From the IMG/VR virus record IMGVR_UViG_3300038701_001097, positions 1-29,135 of that record: a stretch of DNA of 29,135 nt; one strand, 5' to 3'. Of this stretch, positions 1 through 28,011 are shown piece by piece. The stretch's first letter is position 1, and each line of letters starts with the position of its first letter. Below the pieces are notes generated by a model. The model worked only from the letters and a program-made list of their open reading frames with translations. It was not told where the DNA came from and made no database searches. The position numbers were made by a program, and so were the translations under genes. This stretch comes from a virus.

Positions 1-2127
1 GAATTTGCGTAGGAACGGGCCAAACGACTTGGAAATTAATTCACTTTCCATCCAGTGGCAAGACGGTTCATTTCGCCGGAACATGGCTAATAATTCCTCA
101 ACAGTTCGATCTGTCTCCATGTTATCCCACACAAGATCCGGTAAAATCCAAATATTATCCTCTTCATCAATACCAACAGCGCCAACAACTGTCTTATCTC
201 GTTGTTGTTTTTCAGTAACAGCATGATCTGACGCACTATATATACGTAAATTAGATGGTAGCTCATCACGCTGATATGGGACGATCATTTCTTTCGTAAA
301 ATATATACCGTCATCAGGTGTCGGTGATCCCATGACCAGTGCAGAGAATGACCGAGGATCACCACGTTTCCACTGTGCAAAAAATTCCAATGATTTCTCT
401 TTAGGCCATAATGCTGTTGATGCGTCCTCACCGAACTGCTCAATCACCTTTTTATTCTTAGGTACACTCAGTTTTAAATCAAGCGCCTTAGCCAGTCTGT
501 CATCCTTGATAACACCTGGAATATTCATGAATTCCCAGTCATCGGATATACCTTTAAATCGTTTATTCCTATCTGGGTGTGTCGGATCACACAATCTTCC
601 AATGAGGTCATCCTCATTCCATCGCGTGTTATGGCTGACTAACCCATTAGCAATGAAGTTCTCAGTGTTTTCAACCTCAATATCAAAAACATCTTCTTCA
701 CCTTCAAAAACAATTTCATCAACTTCATCATCAGTAATCTTCAAGGTACTGAGCGGCTGACCGTAAAATTGAGACTGTATTTCTCTGTTTGACAAGCAGG
801 TTGCAGTCGTTGCAGAGCAATCCTCTGACTTTTTCTGTGTCGTGGCAGTGGTCAACGAGCAACTTTCCGTTCCATCTTGCTTTGTTGTTTTTAATTTTTT
901 CAGGGAATTGTTTACAGATTGCACAGACCCCTTTTTGCTCTTCAAACATTCTTTTATAATCTTCGGGTTCAATCCCATATCGGTGTCGCAAATGTGATCT
1001 TCTTCTGCTTTCTGAGTTGTGTGACGGGGGTCTGTGTCCATCTGCCCATCGTTTTTTACTGTAGTGTGAGTTGCACAGTCCTTTACACCTTGCAGGTTTG
1101 TCACATCCTTCAATTGTGCATTGTTTATCTCGCCATTTTCCCCAATGACCTTTCGGATAAACATCCCCTTTTTGATTTGATCCGTTCGCAGCCATTTTTC
1201 TTCTCCATTTTCACACACAAGAAACGGGTGTCTTGCATTTGCTCTAACAGAGATACCAGATTTCATCCTAATTGTAAATAAACAATCACGACCTTGATTT
1301 TTCCAGTTAAGAACTTTTGATGCTACAATTCTACCATTTTTGTATGACGCGACATCATCACCTGGTCTAACTTGGTCGAGTCTTTTCTCTTGTCCATCTG
1401 CCATGAGCACTGGTGTTTCTCCAACCATGCAATGAATAACACAAATTTTTGTTCTATTTGAAGCCCTTGAGTATGCAACCTTATAAAACCATGACCAGAT
1501 CTTCTCTAAGTGTCCCTCAGTGAACTCATCGTCATCCCCCTTGAATGGGTCATCAATGATGATATAATCCGCTGTACGGCCCGTAATTGTGCCTCCAACA
1601 CCAATGAAAAAGATCTTACCACCAGCTTTATTCTGCATAAAGGATTTAGATTTTGCATCAGCTTGAAATTCAACTTCAGGGAAAACTTGTCGGAACGTGG
1701 GTTTATCACGGATCATCTGACGAAATTCATGACCTAATTCATCCGCTCTTGTCTGATTGTACGTCACAACAAGGATGTTTTTCCTTGGGTTTTTCCCCCA
1801 AATCCACGACAATCCGAGTTGTGACAGATGAATTGTCTTTCCATGCTGCGGGGGAATTGATACGGCTACTCTTTTCGATTTACCAGCTTCAAACCTCTCA
1901 ACTATGTCACATAGCATTTTAGAGTGACCGGCGCGTTGGTATTCTGTTTTACGGGTATCATCGGGATCTTCAACATCCGGCATCATGAGATGGCAATAAT
2001 CCTGCATACTATCTCTACTTGACGCAATCAGGTACATGCGATGTGCAGTTTTGTGTTCTTCACTATCAACAACCGCTTTTGGTAATTTAGAAAAATCTAA
2101 TACTGGTATATTATCTAATTCGCTCAT
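1..2127 (-). CDS. Terminase large subunit (TerL), intein-interrupted, 3' end outside window
   Basis: This is the packaging motor: an N-terminal ATPase that drives DNA into the prohead and a C-terminal RNase H-like nuclease that cuts the concatemer. I translated the minus strand from the ATG at 2127 and the frame stays open for all 709 codons to the window edge, so the gene is 3'-partial. Walker A is PPQHGKT (residues 92-98) and Walker B is YIIIDDPF (Asp192/193). The coupling motif TRWNEDDLIGRL resumes after the intein. A nuclease-domain start, SASDHAVTEKQQRDKTVVG, follows near the left edge. Removing residues 233-500 joins KICVIH to TRWNEDDL, the usual uninterrupted TerL wording. The start codon overlaps the stop of the o-spanin gene (ATGA), so it is translationally coupled to the lysis cassette, as in T7 where Rz/Rz1 precede gene 19. 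Confidence 0.95.
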   Translation of the reverse strand, partial: MSELDNIPVLDFSKLPKAVVDSEEHKTAHRMYLIASSRDSMQDYCHLMMPDVEDPDDTRKTEYQRAGHSKMLCDIVERFEAGKSKRVAVSIPPQHGKTIHLSQLGLSWIWGKNPRKNILVVTYNQTRADELGHEFRQMIRDKPTFRQVFPEVEFQADAKSKSFMQNKAGGKIFFIGVGGTITGRTADYIIIDDPFKGDDDEFTEGHLEKIWSWFYKVAYSRASNRTKICVIHCMVGETPVLMADGQEKRLDQVRPGDDVASYKNGRIVASKVLNWKNQGRDCLFTIRMKSGISVRANARHPFLVCENGEEKWLRTDQIKKGMFIRKVIGENGEINNAQLKDVTNLQGVKDCATHTTVKNDGQMDTDPRHTTQKAEEDHICDTDMGLNPKIIKECLKSKKGSVQSVNNSLKKLKTTKQDGTESCSLTTATTQKKSEDCSATTATCLSNREIQSQFYGQPLSTLKITDDEVDEIVFEGEEDVFDIEVENTENFIANGLVSHNTRWNEDDLIGRLCDPTHPDRNKRFKGISDDWEFMNIPGVIKDDRLAKALDLKLSVPKNKKVIEQFGEDASTALWPKEKSLEFFAQWKRGDPRSFSALVMGSPTPDDGIYFTKEMIVPYQRDELPSNLRIYSASDHAVTEKQQRDKTVVGAVGIDEEDNIWILPDLVWDNMETDRTVEELLAMFRRNEPSCHWMESELISKSFGPFLRKF
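628..1431 (-). other. Intein inside TerL (268 residues, TerL 233-500)
   Basis: This is an in-frame self-splicing protein element. Block A is CMVGETPVLMADG, starting at Cys233. A block-B-like segment reads VRANARHPFLV. Block F/G reads VFDIEVENTENFIANGLVSHN and ends at Asn500, with penultimate His, and the +1 extein residue is Thr501. A Cys start, a terminal HN and a Thr +1 are all compatible with class 1 splicing. The block B position usually written TxxH is NxxH here. The insertion point is the TerL coupling motif beside the ATPase centre, a site where phage TerL inteins are known. The middle of the element (about residues 315-465) has no recognisable endonuclease in the intein frame; that stretch is a different gene read in another frame (731-1195). 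Confidence 0.93.
731..1195 (-). CDS. Endonuclease VII-type homing endonuclease nested out of frame in the intein
   Basis: A 154-residue protein is encoded wholly within the intein DNA, in the -1 frame relative to TerL. It starts with an N-terminal Cys-rich finger (CTIEGC then CKGLCNSHY). A recombination endonuclease VII domain follows: YGIEPEDYKRMFEEQ, CAIC, LLVDHCHDTEKVRGLLCNDCN. It has the paired CxxC zinc ligands and the DHCH active-site block, and ends with RSAAQYLEDY and a TGA stop. The ATG has its own ribosome-binding site, GGAG seven bases upstream (GGAGAAGAAAAATG), so it can be translated independently. Homing endonucleases of this family are usually in-frame intein domains or free-standing genes; an intact, separately startable gene overlapping an open intein frame is unusual. 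I infer a role in homing of the intein; no target was tested. Confidence 0.88.
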   Translation of the reverse strand: MAANGSNQKGDVYPKGHWGKWRDKQCTIEGCDKPARCKGLCNSHYSKKRWADGHRPPSHNSESRRRSHLRHRYGIEPEDYKRMFEEQKGVCAICKQFPEKIKNNKARWNGKLLVDHCHDTEKVRGLLCNDCNLLVKQRNTVSILRSAAQYLEDY

Positions 2128-23743: not shown

Positions 23744-26722
23744 TTATTCTTCGTCACGCCCTGTTTGTCGCGCACCTTCCGATACACCTAGTAATCTCAT
23801 TAATGTTTTATTGGCTTCTTTTGTTTCAAGTTTTCTAACCGGTGTTTCAAGCAGATATGCAGCCACTTCAGGGTCTAACATCGCACGTGAAAGCAATGCT
23901 TCGGCCCTTGCTGATGGTGGTGTGATACCGGTGTTTTTCAAACCAACTTTAGCACCGGCAATTTTACCACCAGCAGCCACAGCACCAATTTTAAAGGTCA
24001 TAATACTTCTCATTATACCCCAAACAGCATCGGAACGTTGTTTAGCCGCTGTATCAGAGCCTGTTGTGCCACGAAGCTGAAGATTGCCACGTGATTCCAT
24101 CACCTTCTGTATTCTGCGAAGTTTATTCATCTCATCCGGTGAGTAAACTTTAGCGAGAGCTTCACGGTTTTCCTTCATTGTTTTAGCAATACGATTGTAC
24201 AACAACGGGCCATCAGCAGCATCACCAACGGCTTTCACATTAACACCGCTAACATCATTGATTAGGTTTTCTGTAACAGCTCTCTTAAATCCTTCCTTGG
24301 CTGCTTTATTGTCACCAATCAACTTGTTGACCTCATCAATCTTCTTCAAACGATCTTTACCACCCAGAATGGTTTTAACGTATTTATCAGGATCTTCACC
24401 AATTAATGTACCAAGAACACCCTTATTAATACGTTGTTCAGTCAAGCGAACATTACCTTCCGCTTTCTTTAACTCTTCTGCAACATCTTTAATTTCGGCG
24501 ATAATTGCGTCATTTTTTGCCTCAGACGATCCTAATTTCTGCTGAAGATCTTCAAATTTTTTCTTCACTTCAGGGAATTGATCAAGTTGATCTGCTCTAT
24601 CAGCAATCCATTTATTAACTGTTCTGGGTGATGGTTTACCACCTAATTTAGACGCTAAATCAGCAGTCATATAACGCTCTACTGCATTCTGAGCAGCCTT
24701 CTGATCCGGTGCAACATCTACAATTCTAGCAAGATCAGCAGCAGCGTCTGGTGTACCACCTAAAAAGAATTGAGCTGTTTTAGCGGGATCTGCCCGTCCT
24801 GTACGTTCGATGTTGCGCTGAACCGTATCACGGTACTCTCGACCATAACCTTCACCAAAGAATGGTGCGTATTCTTCTCTGTAATATTTCTGTGCTTCAC
24901 CAAACTCAGCTGTATCATCAATCATTTTGTTGATGTCTTTTTTCAGTGTGCTGAGATTATCAACAAGGCTGAATTCACCCTGTTTACGTGCCTTACTGAT
25001 TGCTGACGAGATCTCACGACGAACCTCACTGACACTTTTCATGTCAATTTTACCACCAGTCTCAGTGACCGCTTTGACAGGTTTACCGGATGCATCAAGG
25101 ATCGACGTATCAGTTTCTGTTTTCTTAGGCATGAGTTTTTCAACTTTTTGCACAAAACCCTTTGGTAAACCTGTGTAATCAAGACCAAGCTCATTAACAT
25201 TATCCTGTACCGCTTTGACACTTTTTGCGATGGGTTCAACATCAGCCTCAACACCTTCAGCAGCCTCATCAAATGCTTCATTCTTGATCTTTGTACGCTC
25301 ACCAAGAGCACCTTCAGGGCCAATCTGATCATCAAGTGCTTTACTAGCTTCAGCCTCTCTACCACGCTGTGTGCGGATAGGATCGACCAACTCATCAGCT
25401 TCACGCTCAAGATTAAGTTTCTGTTGTTCTTTAGAGCGTAGATCCTGTTTAACTTTACCGGCCTGAACCTGTGCTTGTTCAATTTCAGCGTCTGCTACTT
25501 CTTTAGCCAGTCTTTGAGGTGCTGTGACATCAGCATTAGGATCACGCAATGATGCAGCTTCCTGTGACAACTCAGTGTTCATTAATTTATCACGCTCCAT
25601 ATACGGAACAGGGTCACGTGTACGCTCACTGACCTCAACAGACGCAAGACCGACATCATCAGATGCAGCACCGGTTGTCATTCTTGACATACCAGCCTCA
25701 TCAGTTGTTGCATTCATTTCACGAATGTTACGGGCCGCTAATTCAGGATCTGATGCTTTATCCTGCATCAACCCTGCTGAACGCTTAACAATACTGCTTT
25801 TCTCTTTCGTCCCATCGGGGAGTGTTCTTGTGCGTCTGAGTGGTAGATTATTGTCAACCATATCAACAATACCTGATCCTGTCTTTATCGCAGCATTCGT
25901 ACCTGTTGAGCCAACTTTACCACCAACTAATGCACCAGCAATCGGGTATGCAAGGCTTTCGATTAAGCCAGCATCCTCATTGTTTTCTGAAATTTGTTCA
26001 GCTTTACTCACACCATAACCAGCACCAGCACCGGCTGCTGTGTCAGTGATGACCTGTCTGACCGGTTGTGTCTCATATGGTGCTGTTACAGCTTTACCTA
26101 TTGCTGATTGTGCCTTACCTGCTCTTGAAGCAAGACCGATACTACCCATTCCAGCACCGGATGCAAAACGCAATGTATTATAGGCATCTTTATCTGATTG
26201 ATTAAGGTCGTCTTGCTGGATAACAGATCCACCTATTTGTTCTATCATCCTTGCAAAAGTTGATGCAATATCATCACTACCTAACGCTGGATTAGTGTTC
26301 ATGGGTAGTTTATCATCTCTGAATAAATTAACGACTTCACGAGCAGCATTTCCGGCTAAATTCAACATGTCCACAGGTGTTCCAGCTAAATCAGCAGCAC
26401 CACGACCAACAGCTTGTATAGCAAGCTGTAAACCGTCTGCATCGGTTGGAATTGGAATACCTGACCCAAAGAATTGAGGGCTAAAAACATTGTTATCAAG
26501 GGATGCTTGCTGTTCTCTAAATTCATCACCTTGTTCATACCATGGGATTTGACCATCATCTGTCACCAATGGTGCGCCTAACTCAGATCCTGGCATTGGG
26601 TTTTCTGGTGAAAATTGTGGTTCTTGGGGTTGTGCAGCAACAGGTGCAACCGTTTGATCAACGACTGGTGCATTCTGCCAAGAAGATTGTCCACCCACTA
26701 CGGGTGCGTCTTTCCATCCCAT
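23744..26722 (-). CDS. Large internal virion (DNA ejection) protein, gp16-like position
   Basis: A 992-residue structural protein, last of the ejection set. The N-terminus has two copies of a short unit (WKDAPVV and WQNAPVV), a feature of podovirus ejection proteins. A Gln/Pro-rich stretch, Gly/Ala-rich helices with weak membrane character (AGAGAGYGVSK, IAGALVGGKVG), and a very long charged coiled-coil region (about 390-790) follow. The end is a basic Gly/Ala helical region. By position after the gp14- and gp15-like genes it corresponds to T7 gp16, which spans the host envelope during DNA entry; I see no lytic transglycosylase motif in it. The start overlaps the stop of the previous gene. Confidence 0.72.
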   Translation of the reverse strand: MGWKDAPVVGGQSSWQNAPVVDQTVAPVAAQPQEPQFSPENPMPGSELGAPLVTDDGQIPWYEQGDEFREQQASLDNNVFSPQFFGSGIPIPTDADGLQLAIQAVGRGAADLAGTPVDMLNLAGNAAREVVNLFRDDKLPMNTNPALGSDDIASTFARMIEQIGGSVIQQDDLNQSDKDAYNTLRFASGAGMGSIGLASRAGKAQSAIGKAVTAPYETQPVRQVITDTAAGAGAGYGVSKAEQISENNEDAGLIESLAYPIAGALVGGKVGSTGTNAAIKTGSGIVDMVDNNLPLRRTRTLPDGTKEKSSIVKRSAGLMQDKASDPELAARNIREMNATTDEAGMSRMTTGAASDDVGLASVEVSERTRDPVPYMERDKLMNTELSQEAASLRDPNADVTAPQRLAKEVADAEIEQAQVQAGKVKQDLRSKEQQKLNLEREADELVDPIRTQRGREAEASKALDDQIGPEGALGERTKIKNEAFDEAAEGVEADVEPIAKSVKAVQDNVNELGLDYTGLPKGFVQKVEKLMPKKTETDTSILDASGKPVKAVTETGGKIDMKSVSEVRREISSAISKARKQGEFSLVDNLSTLKKDINKMIDDTAEFGEAQKYYREEYAPFFGEGYGREYRDTVQRNIERTGRADPAKTAQFFLGGTPDAAADLARIVDVAPDQKAAQNAVERYMTADLASKLGGKPSPRTVNKWIADRADQLDQFPEVKKKFEDLQQKLGSSEAKNDAIIAEIKDVAEELKKAEGNVRLTEQRINKGVLGTLIGEDPDKYVKTILGGKDRLKKIDEVNKLIGDNKAAKEGFKRAVTENLINDVSGVNVKAVGDAADGPLLYNRIAKTMKENREALAKVYSPDEMNKLRRIQKVMESRGNLQLRGTTGSDTAAKQRSDAVWGIMRSIMTFKIGAVAAGGKIAGAKVGLKNTGITPPSARAEALLSRAMLDPEVAAYLLETPVRKLETKEANKTLMRLLGVSEGARQTGRDEE

Positions 26723-28011
26723 TATGGTTTAATCCTTGTTGTTCCATCTGGTGCTACAAATTTTGTCCCTGATGGTAGGGCATTGTAATCATCATCTGAT
26801 TTAATTTGGACAGCAGGTGGTGGTTGACCAGATGCTGCACCGGTTACATTACCGCCGAGTGTGGTGTCAGTAACGGTTTCTCTACCACCCACAATGTTTT
26901 CAATAACACTTAACTTAGCCAAGTATTTGTCTTGGTGTGAAAACAAACTTCTGGGATTACCAACAATATTTCTGAAGTATTTAACATCCGCATCAGACAT
27001 GCCACGACCTTGCTGTTCCGCAAGGGCAGCAGCAGCTTGGAAAACAAGTAAATCAGATGCTGTTTGTAACGCATCAAGTGATGGGTCGTAAATACCAGGT
27101 AACAATGCCGGATTAATATTGTACTGTTGTGCCTTGATTTGAACATCATTAACAGCTTGATCAGCCTGTTCGTAACCAAATGATTGCGATACACCACCGA
27201 GTAACGCACCAGTGTCTTGTAGAACACCCTTAACCATGCCTGGAACACCAAAATTCAACGCATCCTCGCTGGCAAGCTGCCTGTTGTAATCTAACAATTG
27301 ACGTAACTTCGCATTTTCGACCTGCTGACCCTGTAATGAATTTATAGTGCTTTTCGACGGAGATAGTTTAGGTTGACCACCATCAAGTGAAATAACCGTC
27401 CCATCTGCTGTTTCAATGTATGAGCCACCACCCTCTTTGAATGGTGCTGCTGCGATCTGTTCATTGTTACCGTCAAAACGAATTTGACCAGGTGACAGAT
27501 TGTAACCAGGCATCATATTCTGATAACTGGTTGCTTTCTCATCAATTGCAAGCTGGCGCTGAATAGGATCATCAAAACGCATTGCATTAGCAGCACCAAT
27601 AGCATCACGAGAAGCTTCAACTTGATCAGGACTTAACCGTGGTGCAAAACTCTCAAACAAATTAGCAATCTCACCACTACGATCAGCTTGTGTAACAGGT
27701 ATCTGTGGGCCAACACTACCATCTGTTGGTACAGCGCCCTGAACCTGTGGTAACTCAGAAAAAGCATTAGCAAATTGATCAGCAAACTGGCTTTGTTTTT
27801 GTAGTTGACCTAGCTCAAAATCACGAGCACCCATCTGACCTTGAAGATTTTGCCTCTGTAATTCATCTGTCTGTAGGTTGGACTGCAACACTTGATTTTT
27901 TAATTGTTGTTGCTGAATTTCACCAGCACTAGGCTGGCTCATATAATGTTTATACAAAGCGCCTACTGCTTGATTGGCTGCATCAGCCCATGGATTATCT
28001 CTGTCTCTCAT
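26722..28011 (-). CDS. Internal virion protein, gp15-like position
   Basis: A 429-residue protein with a Gln-rich helical N-terminal third (GEIQQQQLKNQVLQSNLQTD, then LQRQNLQGQMGARDFELGQL). A mixed middle follows (APRLSPDQVEASRDAIGAAN), then a helical region with Ala-rich heptads (LLVFQAAAALAEQQGRG). The C-terminus reads DDYNALPSGTKFVAPDGTTRIKP; the LPSGT-x-(F/Y)-x-x-PDG-x-x-R-x-K ending is shared by many phage ejection proteins. It is coupled to both neighbours by one-base overlaps. Function is inferred from position and composition. Confidence 0.7.
   Translation of the reverse strand: MRDRDNPWADAANQAVGALYKHYMSQPSAGEIQQQQLKNQVLQSNLQTDELQRQNLQGQMGARDFELGQLQKQSQFADQFANAFSELPQVQGAVPTDGSVGPQIPVTQADRSGEIANLFESFAPRLSPDQVEASRDAIGAANAMRFDDPIQRQLAIDEKATSYQNMMPGYNLSPGQIRFDGNNEQIAAAPFKEGGGSYIETADGTVISLDGGQPKLSPSKSTINSLQGQQVENAKLRQLLDYNRQLASEDALNFGVPGMVKGVLQDTGALLGGVSQSFGYEQADQAVNDVQIKAQQYNINPALLPGIYDPSLDALQTASDLLVFQAAAALAEQQGRGMSDADVKYFRNIVGNPRSLFSHQDKYLAKLSVIENIVGGRETVTDTTLGGNVTGAASGQPPPAVQIKSDDDYNALPSGTKFVAPDGTTRIKP

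Follow-up and report, generated by a model that had tools for sequence, protein, structure and literature searches.

How can a homing endonuclease (HEN) gene lie inside an intein in a different reading frame while the intein itself stays readable from end to end? Inteins generally combine splicing and endonuclease functions in one reading frame, the nuclease folding within the intein and being excised with it. The question is raised by the gene for the terminase large subunit (TerL) in a 29,135-nt stretch of viral DNA (IMG/VR virus record IMGVR_UViG_3300038701_001097, positions 1 to 29,135; hereafter, the window). Our analyses of this gene and its relatives make it very probable that TerL carries a composite mobile element, in which a self-splicing class-1-type intein holds an out-of-frame Endonuclease VII-type homing gene in a disordered linker. 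In the mechanism that we propose, ribosomes that start at the TerL start codon would translate the whole element into a single precursor, in which the nuclease region would form a disordered loop of ~120 residues joining the two halves of the splicing (Hint) domain; the halves would meet across this loop, and intein splicing would restore TerL. Ribosomes that start at a nested ATG or GTG, located on a conserved Trp codon of the intein, would make a separate nuclease of 154 residues. TerL genes that lack the intein would be cut by this nuclease at the conserved C-motif, and would acquire the element when the break is repaired from an intein-bearing copy.

The intein and the nested nuclease gene

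The TerL reading frame, which matches Terminase_6N in Pfam (E = 1.3e-9), is interrupted at the terminase C-motif, between KICVIH and TRWNEDD, by an insert containing an Intein_splicing domain (PF14890, E = 1.6e-16). Profile searches against the PDB matched the insert to the NpuDnaB and Ssp DnaB inteins, and a Foldseek comparison gave a template modeling (TM) score of 0.87 to NpuDnaB, normalized to the target. AlphaFold predicts a Hint fold with high confidence. Specifically, the predicted local distance difference test (pLDDT) values are ~95 for residues 1 to 90, 79 for residues 91 to 100 and 93 to 97 from residue 231 onward, and fall below 50 in residues 99 to 221, the intein-frame shadow of the nuclease reading frame. 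Among 90 distinct relatives, intein residues 1 to 78 are conserved and residues 235 to 268 form the most conserved stretch; in the shadow, conservation of the intein frame is low. C1, the block B residue H68, N268 and T+1 are invariant in 90/90 of these sequences, and the penultimate H267 is found in 84. The exact empty site is present in ten intein-free TerL relatives with extein identities of 81 to 89%, and in most of them KICVIH runs into TRWNEDD without interruption. By its splicing domain, its key residues and its exact in-frame insertion, the insert is, at the level of sequence, a class 1 intein.

Inside the intein, in the −1 frame relative to TerL, an open reading frame (ORF) extends from an ATG to a TGA. 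Its product matches Endonuclease_7 (PF02945, E = 2.7e-17) and the T4 EndoVII profile (E = 3e-8), and T4 EndoVII is also its best, although weak, Foldseek match (E = 0.004). The AlphaFold model has a mean pLDDT of 87, with the first residues folding poorly. Residues D115, H116 and N132, a CxxC/CxxC zinc site and an N-terminal CCCH module are invariant, and eleven catalytic and zinc positions are identical in 89/89 full-length nested nucleases. By its profile match and its residues, the protein belongs to the Endonuclease VII / His-Me finger nucleases. Both the 268-residue intein and the −1-frame endonuclease VII-type gene at 731-1195, with its own start and stop, had been proposed in an initial annotation made from the sequence of the window; both hold, with exact coordinates (Table 1), the PF14890 and PF02945 matches and, for the intein, the empty sites. 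In a subgroup with inteins of 302 to 308 residues (loci L075, L078, L169, L170, L173 and others, where L numbers denote retrieved loci), the nested nuclease is longer, ~190 residues, and has an extra N-terminal Cys-rich module.

Table 1. Positions of TerL, the intein and the nested gene in the window
Feature	Coordinates (nt)	Strand	Remarks
TerL (terminase large subunit, Terminase_6N type), intein-bearing	2127-1	minus	3′ end off contig
Complete intein, 268 residues (codons), class-1-type	1431-628	minus	C1 ... H267 N268, +1 Thr
Splicing (Hint) domain, N-terminal part, intein residues 1-98	1431-1138	minus	pLDDT and conservation
GGAG, possible Shine-Dalgarno of nested gene	1206-1203	minus	7-nt spacer
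Nested start codon	1195-1193	minus	TG common to conserved intein Trp codon (TGG)
Nested Endonuclease VII-type HEN gene, 154 residues + TGA	1195-731	minus	PF02945
Shadow of nuclease reading frame, intein residues 99-221	1137-769	minus	pLDDT <50 throughout; predicted disordered
Splicing domain, C-terminal part, intein residues 223-268	765-628	minus	pLDDT and conservation

An open intein frame across a phage family

IMG/VR was searched with the nuclease and with the intein, and the best 80 of 429 and the best 80 of 457 related stretches, respectively, were retained. A search independent of the nuclease, using the C-terminal DNA motif of the intein, returned at least 120 stretches. Bacterial genomes contributed nine loci (Nonomuraea, Mycolicibacterium, Bradyrhizobium, Sulfuritalea and several metagenome-assembled genomes, including Chloroflexota). 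The retrieved loci yielded 172 distinct inteins, each with T-[RWC]-W of the same terminase site after its last residue. These inteins were chosen as having both halves in one open frame, the exceptions found being L097 and L242, and intein-frame stops are present in 0/172. The nuclease is present in 170 of them, always in the same shifted frame (offset 2 in 170/170) and not as the in-frame domain of a canonical intein-encoded endonuclease; two are HEN-less. Among the matches listed for the motif search, the nuclease is full in 72 of 77 complete inteins, truncated in 3 and absent from 2. The same arrangement, unannotated, was evident in isolated Gordonia (Vividuovirus) and Mycobacterium cluster B3/B4 (Pipefishvirus, Coopervirus) phages. 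To judge from these loci, the arrangement is that of a large, old, mobile and widespread family and is not particular to the window phage. The 662-residue intein of L300, one of the 172, is probably a join across two inteins; the L300 TerL appears to bear one at the Walker A motif (after PPRHGK) and one, with a nested nuclease, at the C-motif.

Could the intein frame be open through chance or GC bias, in a TerL gene rendered nonfunctional by its insert? For the window locus taken singly, the probability of the open frame comes to 5.9e-4 if bases are uniform and to 6.5e-4 if the stop rate of the +1 frames of the other window genes is applied, but to 1.8% when the nuclease protein is fixed and its codons are redrawn synonymously; moreover, an open +1 run of 151 codons occurs in one other window gene. 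The value of less than 0.1% given in the initial annotation thus applies under uniform bases and is optimistic with the nuclease fixed. Because the chance figure depends on the null and such a run exists elsewhere, the window locus by itself is weak evidence of selection; the family-wide result makes the case compelling. In 47 representatives with less than 65% HEN identity, drawn from the 90-sequence set and analyzed with their nuclease proteins fixed, 140 intein-frame stops were expected and none was observed. The third forward frame, by comparison, is open in 0/90. The inteins of the 90-sequence set span GC contents of 0.36 to 0.65, their splicing residues are invariant except for H267, and a homologous intein splices (PMC5050341). 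Chance openness, possible at one locus, is ruled out by the family, and we regard this explanation as having almost no likelihood. Indeed, the missing stops bear out the earlier suggestion that the host frame is held open by selection.

An endonuclease ORF that is out of frame with its host gene is a typical feature of group I introns, which raises the alternative that the insert is such an intron, or one of another type, that encodes its own endonuclease and is spliced out of the RNA. However, a complete and conserved intein splicing domain flanks the ORF, the frame is open in all 172 sequences, and an Rfam scan of the window found no family at the gathering threshold. On this last result the group I intron was rejected, and removal of the insert as an intron of any kind is exceedingly improbable.

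Within the overlap, position 2 of the nuclease codons is the slowest to change and position 3 the fastest, and at 54% HEN identity the shadow is 29% identical, compared with 56% for the intein N part and 70% for the C part. These rates indicate that purifying selection in the overlap acts on the nuclease frame, not on the intein frame. True double coding would be confined to two short stretches: about 20 codons at the start of the nuclease, in which the intein retains its conserved Trp, Arg and Ile/Leu and the nuclease is not conserved, and ~9 codons at the nuclease end. In the structural models the two proteins would barely compete, the conserved, foldable parts of the intein lying mostly outside the nuclease region. 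The double coding initially proposed is therefore real in that the frame is held open and mostly nominal in that, for the greater part of the overlap, conservation is confined to the nuclease frame. The direction of selection, together with the eleven invariant catalytic and zinc positions, argues strongly against a nuclease frame that is no more than a nonfunctional remnant, persisting solely because the intein frame depends on the same codons. Internally deleted HENs in otherwise intact inteins would fit such a remnant, but as an account of the family it is highly unlikely.

Proposed initiation and homing, and decay of the nuclease

Of 169 distinct HEN-bearing inteins tested, 168 have an rTG-G start on the conserved Trp codon (143 ATG, 25 GTG). 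In the 90-sequence set a purine precedes TGG in 26/26 sites at which a pyrimidine would leave the intein unchanged (log10 P of −8.8 under uniform codon use). The codon immediately 5′ of the start is a HEN-frame stop in 7/90 sequences, and such a stop is no more than five codons upstream in 45/90, so that these nucleases cannot be read in from far upstream. Together, the conserved start and the nearby upstream stops favor internal initiation over programmed −1 ribosomal frameshifting, by which the nuclease would be made as an intein-N/nuclease fusion with no internal initiation. The offset is always −1, as frameshifting would have it, and in L097 an insertion or deletion (indel) places the intein N part in frame with the nuclease, producing such a fusion. 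Yet frameshifting accounts neither for the retained purines and start codons nor for the stops, and HEN residues 2 to 15 are poorly conserved; we consider it improbable.

Copies of the element resemble one another far more closely than do the terminases that carry them. In L026 and L033, for example, the exteins are 38% identical, the inteins 78% and the nucleases 88%. Nuclease and intein distances correlate with an r of 0.67, a value inflated by their overlapping DNA, compared with 0.33 to 0.36 for each against the extein, and the extein data reject one element clade (approximately unbiased test, p-AU 0.023). Homing-endonuclease mobility is thereby supported, only indirectly, by the empty sites and the discordant element and extein similarities. 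A different role for the nested protein, mainly as a recombination or packaging nuclease akin to the T4 EndoVII resolvase, would suit its Endonuclease VII family, and HNH proteins aid phage DNA packaging in other systems, as cited in PMC11855218. The nuclease, however, lies within a mobile intein and bears an extra Cys/His module at its N terminus; it is absent at this site in closely related intein-free phages and is deleted in some inteins. A resolvase or packaging function as its main role is thus distinctly improbable.

Loss of the nuclease takes two forms. Two loci, L214 and L283, have mini-inteins that lack a working nuclease; in four others (L257, L241, L184 and L163) the nuclease has internal deletions. 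All six retain the intein frame and nuclease remnants. By analogy with other mobile inteins, this frame-preserving HEN loss is the decay expected of a homing cycle. Because the HEN-lacking and HEN-truncated inteins still carry nuclease remnants, they look like decay products and not like ancestors that predate the invasion; as unnested ancestors they were rejected, the remnants pointing to deletions. The comparison of TerL homologues envisaged in the initial annotation thus yielded intact, HEN-less and intein-free forms, but no HEN-less form clean of nuclease sequence. In a nuclease tree with six free-standing relatives the branches were long, and the tree spoke neither for nor against a single origin of the nested nuclease. 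With remnants in the HEN-less forms and a tree that does not decide, we can still only infer that a free-standing gene invaded a mini-intein, as had been suggested.

Several points weigh against a self-splicing intein with an internally initiated homing gene. We infer three of the steps, namely initiation at the nested start in vivo, cutting of DNA at the empty site, and homing. A GGAG is present upstream of the nested start, where the initial annotation had placed a Shine-Dalgarno sequence belonging to the nested gene, but such matches are not stronger than the intein amino acids impose (53% compared with 44% expected under synonymous recoding), and Shine-Dalgarno conservation was dropped as a sign of translation because it does not exceed expectation. 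Summed log P values, such as the log10 P of −78 for the absent stops in the 47 representatives, overstate independence, as the sequences are related, and are not true probabilities. The other four tests of conflict between element and extein trees gave p values of 0.05 to 0.5, a mixed outcome, so that the case for transfer rests mainly on the gap between element and extein identities. Finally, L097 (1600-2800) and L242 (reverse strand, 1000-2000) have indels within or close to the overlap that disrupt the TerL/intein frame; these breaks may be sequencing errors or natural broken or split forms.

Relation to known systems

The TerL6-f inteins of cluster B3/B4 mycobacteriophages occupy the same C-motif site in the same TerL family and are homologous to the window intein. 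The intein of Chandler gp6 (TerL6-f) is reported to splice in an E. coli reporter (Kelley et al. 2016, PMC5050341), and we found the nested ORF, which starts with GTG, in this same intein. Chandler, Phlyer, phi1_186018 and AlanGrant all contain the nested Endonuclease VII ORF, in the same frame as in the window, and their records annotate only the terminase at the locus (Phlyer also the intein). A nested nuclease is not mentioned in the available part of PMC5050341, where endonuclease activity is linked only to TerL1-b and TerL1-c.

Phage insertions that stay open in the host frame and hold an HNH gene in another frame have already been published. In phage DNA methylases, the ShiLan domain and the Pacc40 gp60 insertion each contain an HNH endonuclease gene read out of frame (Arsenault et al. 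2025, PMC11855218), and they resemble the window in having such an endonuclease in an open-frame insertion of a phage gene, with homing proposed. No splicing domain is detectable in the ShiLan and Pacc40 insertions, which presumably remain part of the protein, whereas the window insertion is a complete intein; its full splicing domain sets it apart from a ShiLan-type insertion, which lacks any. For ShiLan and Pacc40, the authors found no ribosome binding site and proposed leaderless initiation at a GTG (PMC11855218).

Canonical large inteins, with in-frame LAGLIDADG or HNH endonucleases, likewise have an endonuclease between the splicing halves, a homing cycle and loss to mini-inteins, but theirs is an in-frame domain whereas the window nuclease is a separate protein in another frame. 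The Endonuclease VII core is shared with the g49 product of S-PM2 (44.6% over residues 73 to 154), which we take to be F-CphI, a proven homing enzyme. The g49 gene, which lies beside psbA, is free-standing and not nested, and the match stops short of the module at the N terminus of the nested nucleases. T4 endonuclease VII (gp49) shares the zinc and His-Me finger core by profile, with the weak Foldseek match given above; it differs in the remainder of the protein and is a junction resolvase, not a mobile element. Two other Endonuclease VII loci were encountered. In L304 (Pectobacterium phage Jarilo) an Endonuclease VII gene lies between two coding sequences annotated as DNA polymerase I, an arrangement that points to a split gene or an intron. 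In L308 (Yersinia phage vB_YenP_WX2) the "protein kinase" gene at 1279-1734, which adjoins the gene annotated as serine/threonine kinase, encodes an Endonuclease VII-type protein and is likely misannotated.

Two things appear to be new: the combination of a complete intein with an Endonuclease VII nuclease that is encoded separately and apparently initiated internally, and a breadth well beyond actinophages. A 2025 preprint on noncanonical actinobacteriophage inteins (10.1101/2025.01.02.630785) may describe the family in actinophages, and this possible prior description, with the published ShiLan and Pacc40 cases, limits the claim to novelty. We judge the chances evenly divided that the family constitutes an undescribed, phage-wide intein class that uncouples splicing from homing, with an internally initiated and separately folded HEN, a class carried by phages and prophages whose hosts range from Actinomycetota to Pseudomonadota and Chloroflexota. 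If so, an intein would keep a small splicing protein yet carry a separate homing gene. The out-of-frame nested endonuclease family would represent a second way of building a mobile intein, and the invasion step, in which a homing gene colonizes an intein, would become open to study. The family would also provide a large natural data set on overlapping genes whose functional cores are mostly apart. Inteins catalogued without an endonuclease domain may conceal one, and public terminase records would be missing a gene.

Elsewhere in the window, two long minus-strand ORFs of 992 and 429 amino acids (23744-28011) had no PHROGs match; they adjoin an ORF with a weak match to an internal virion protein.
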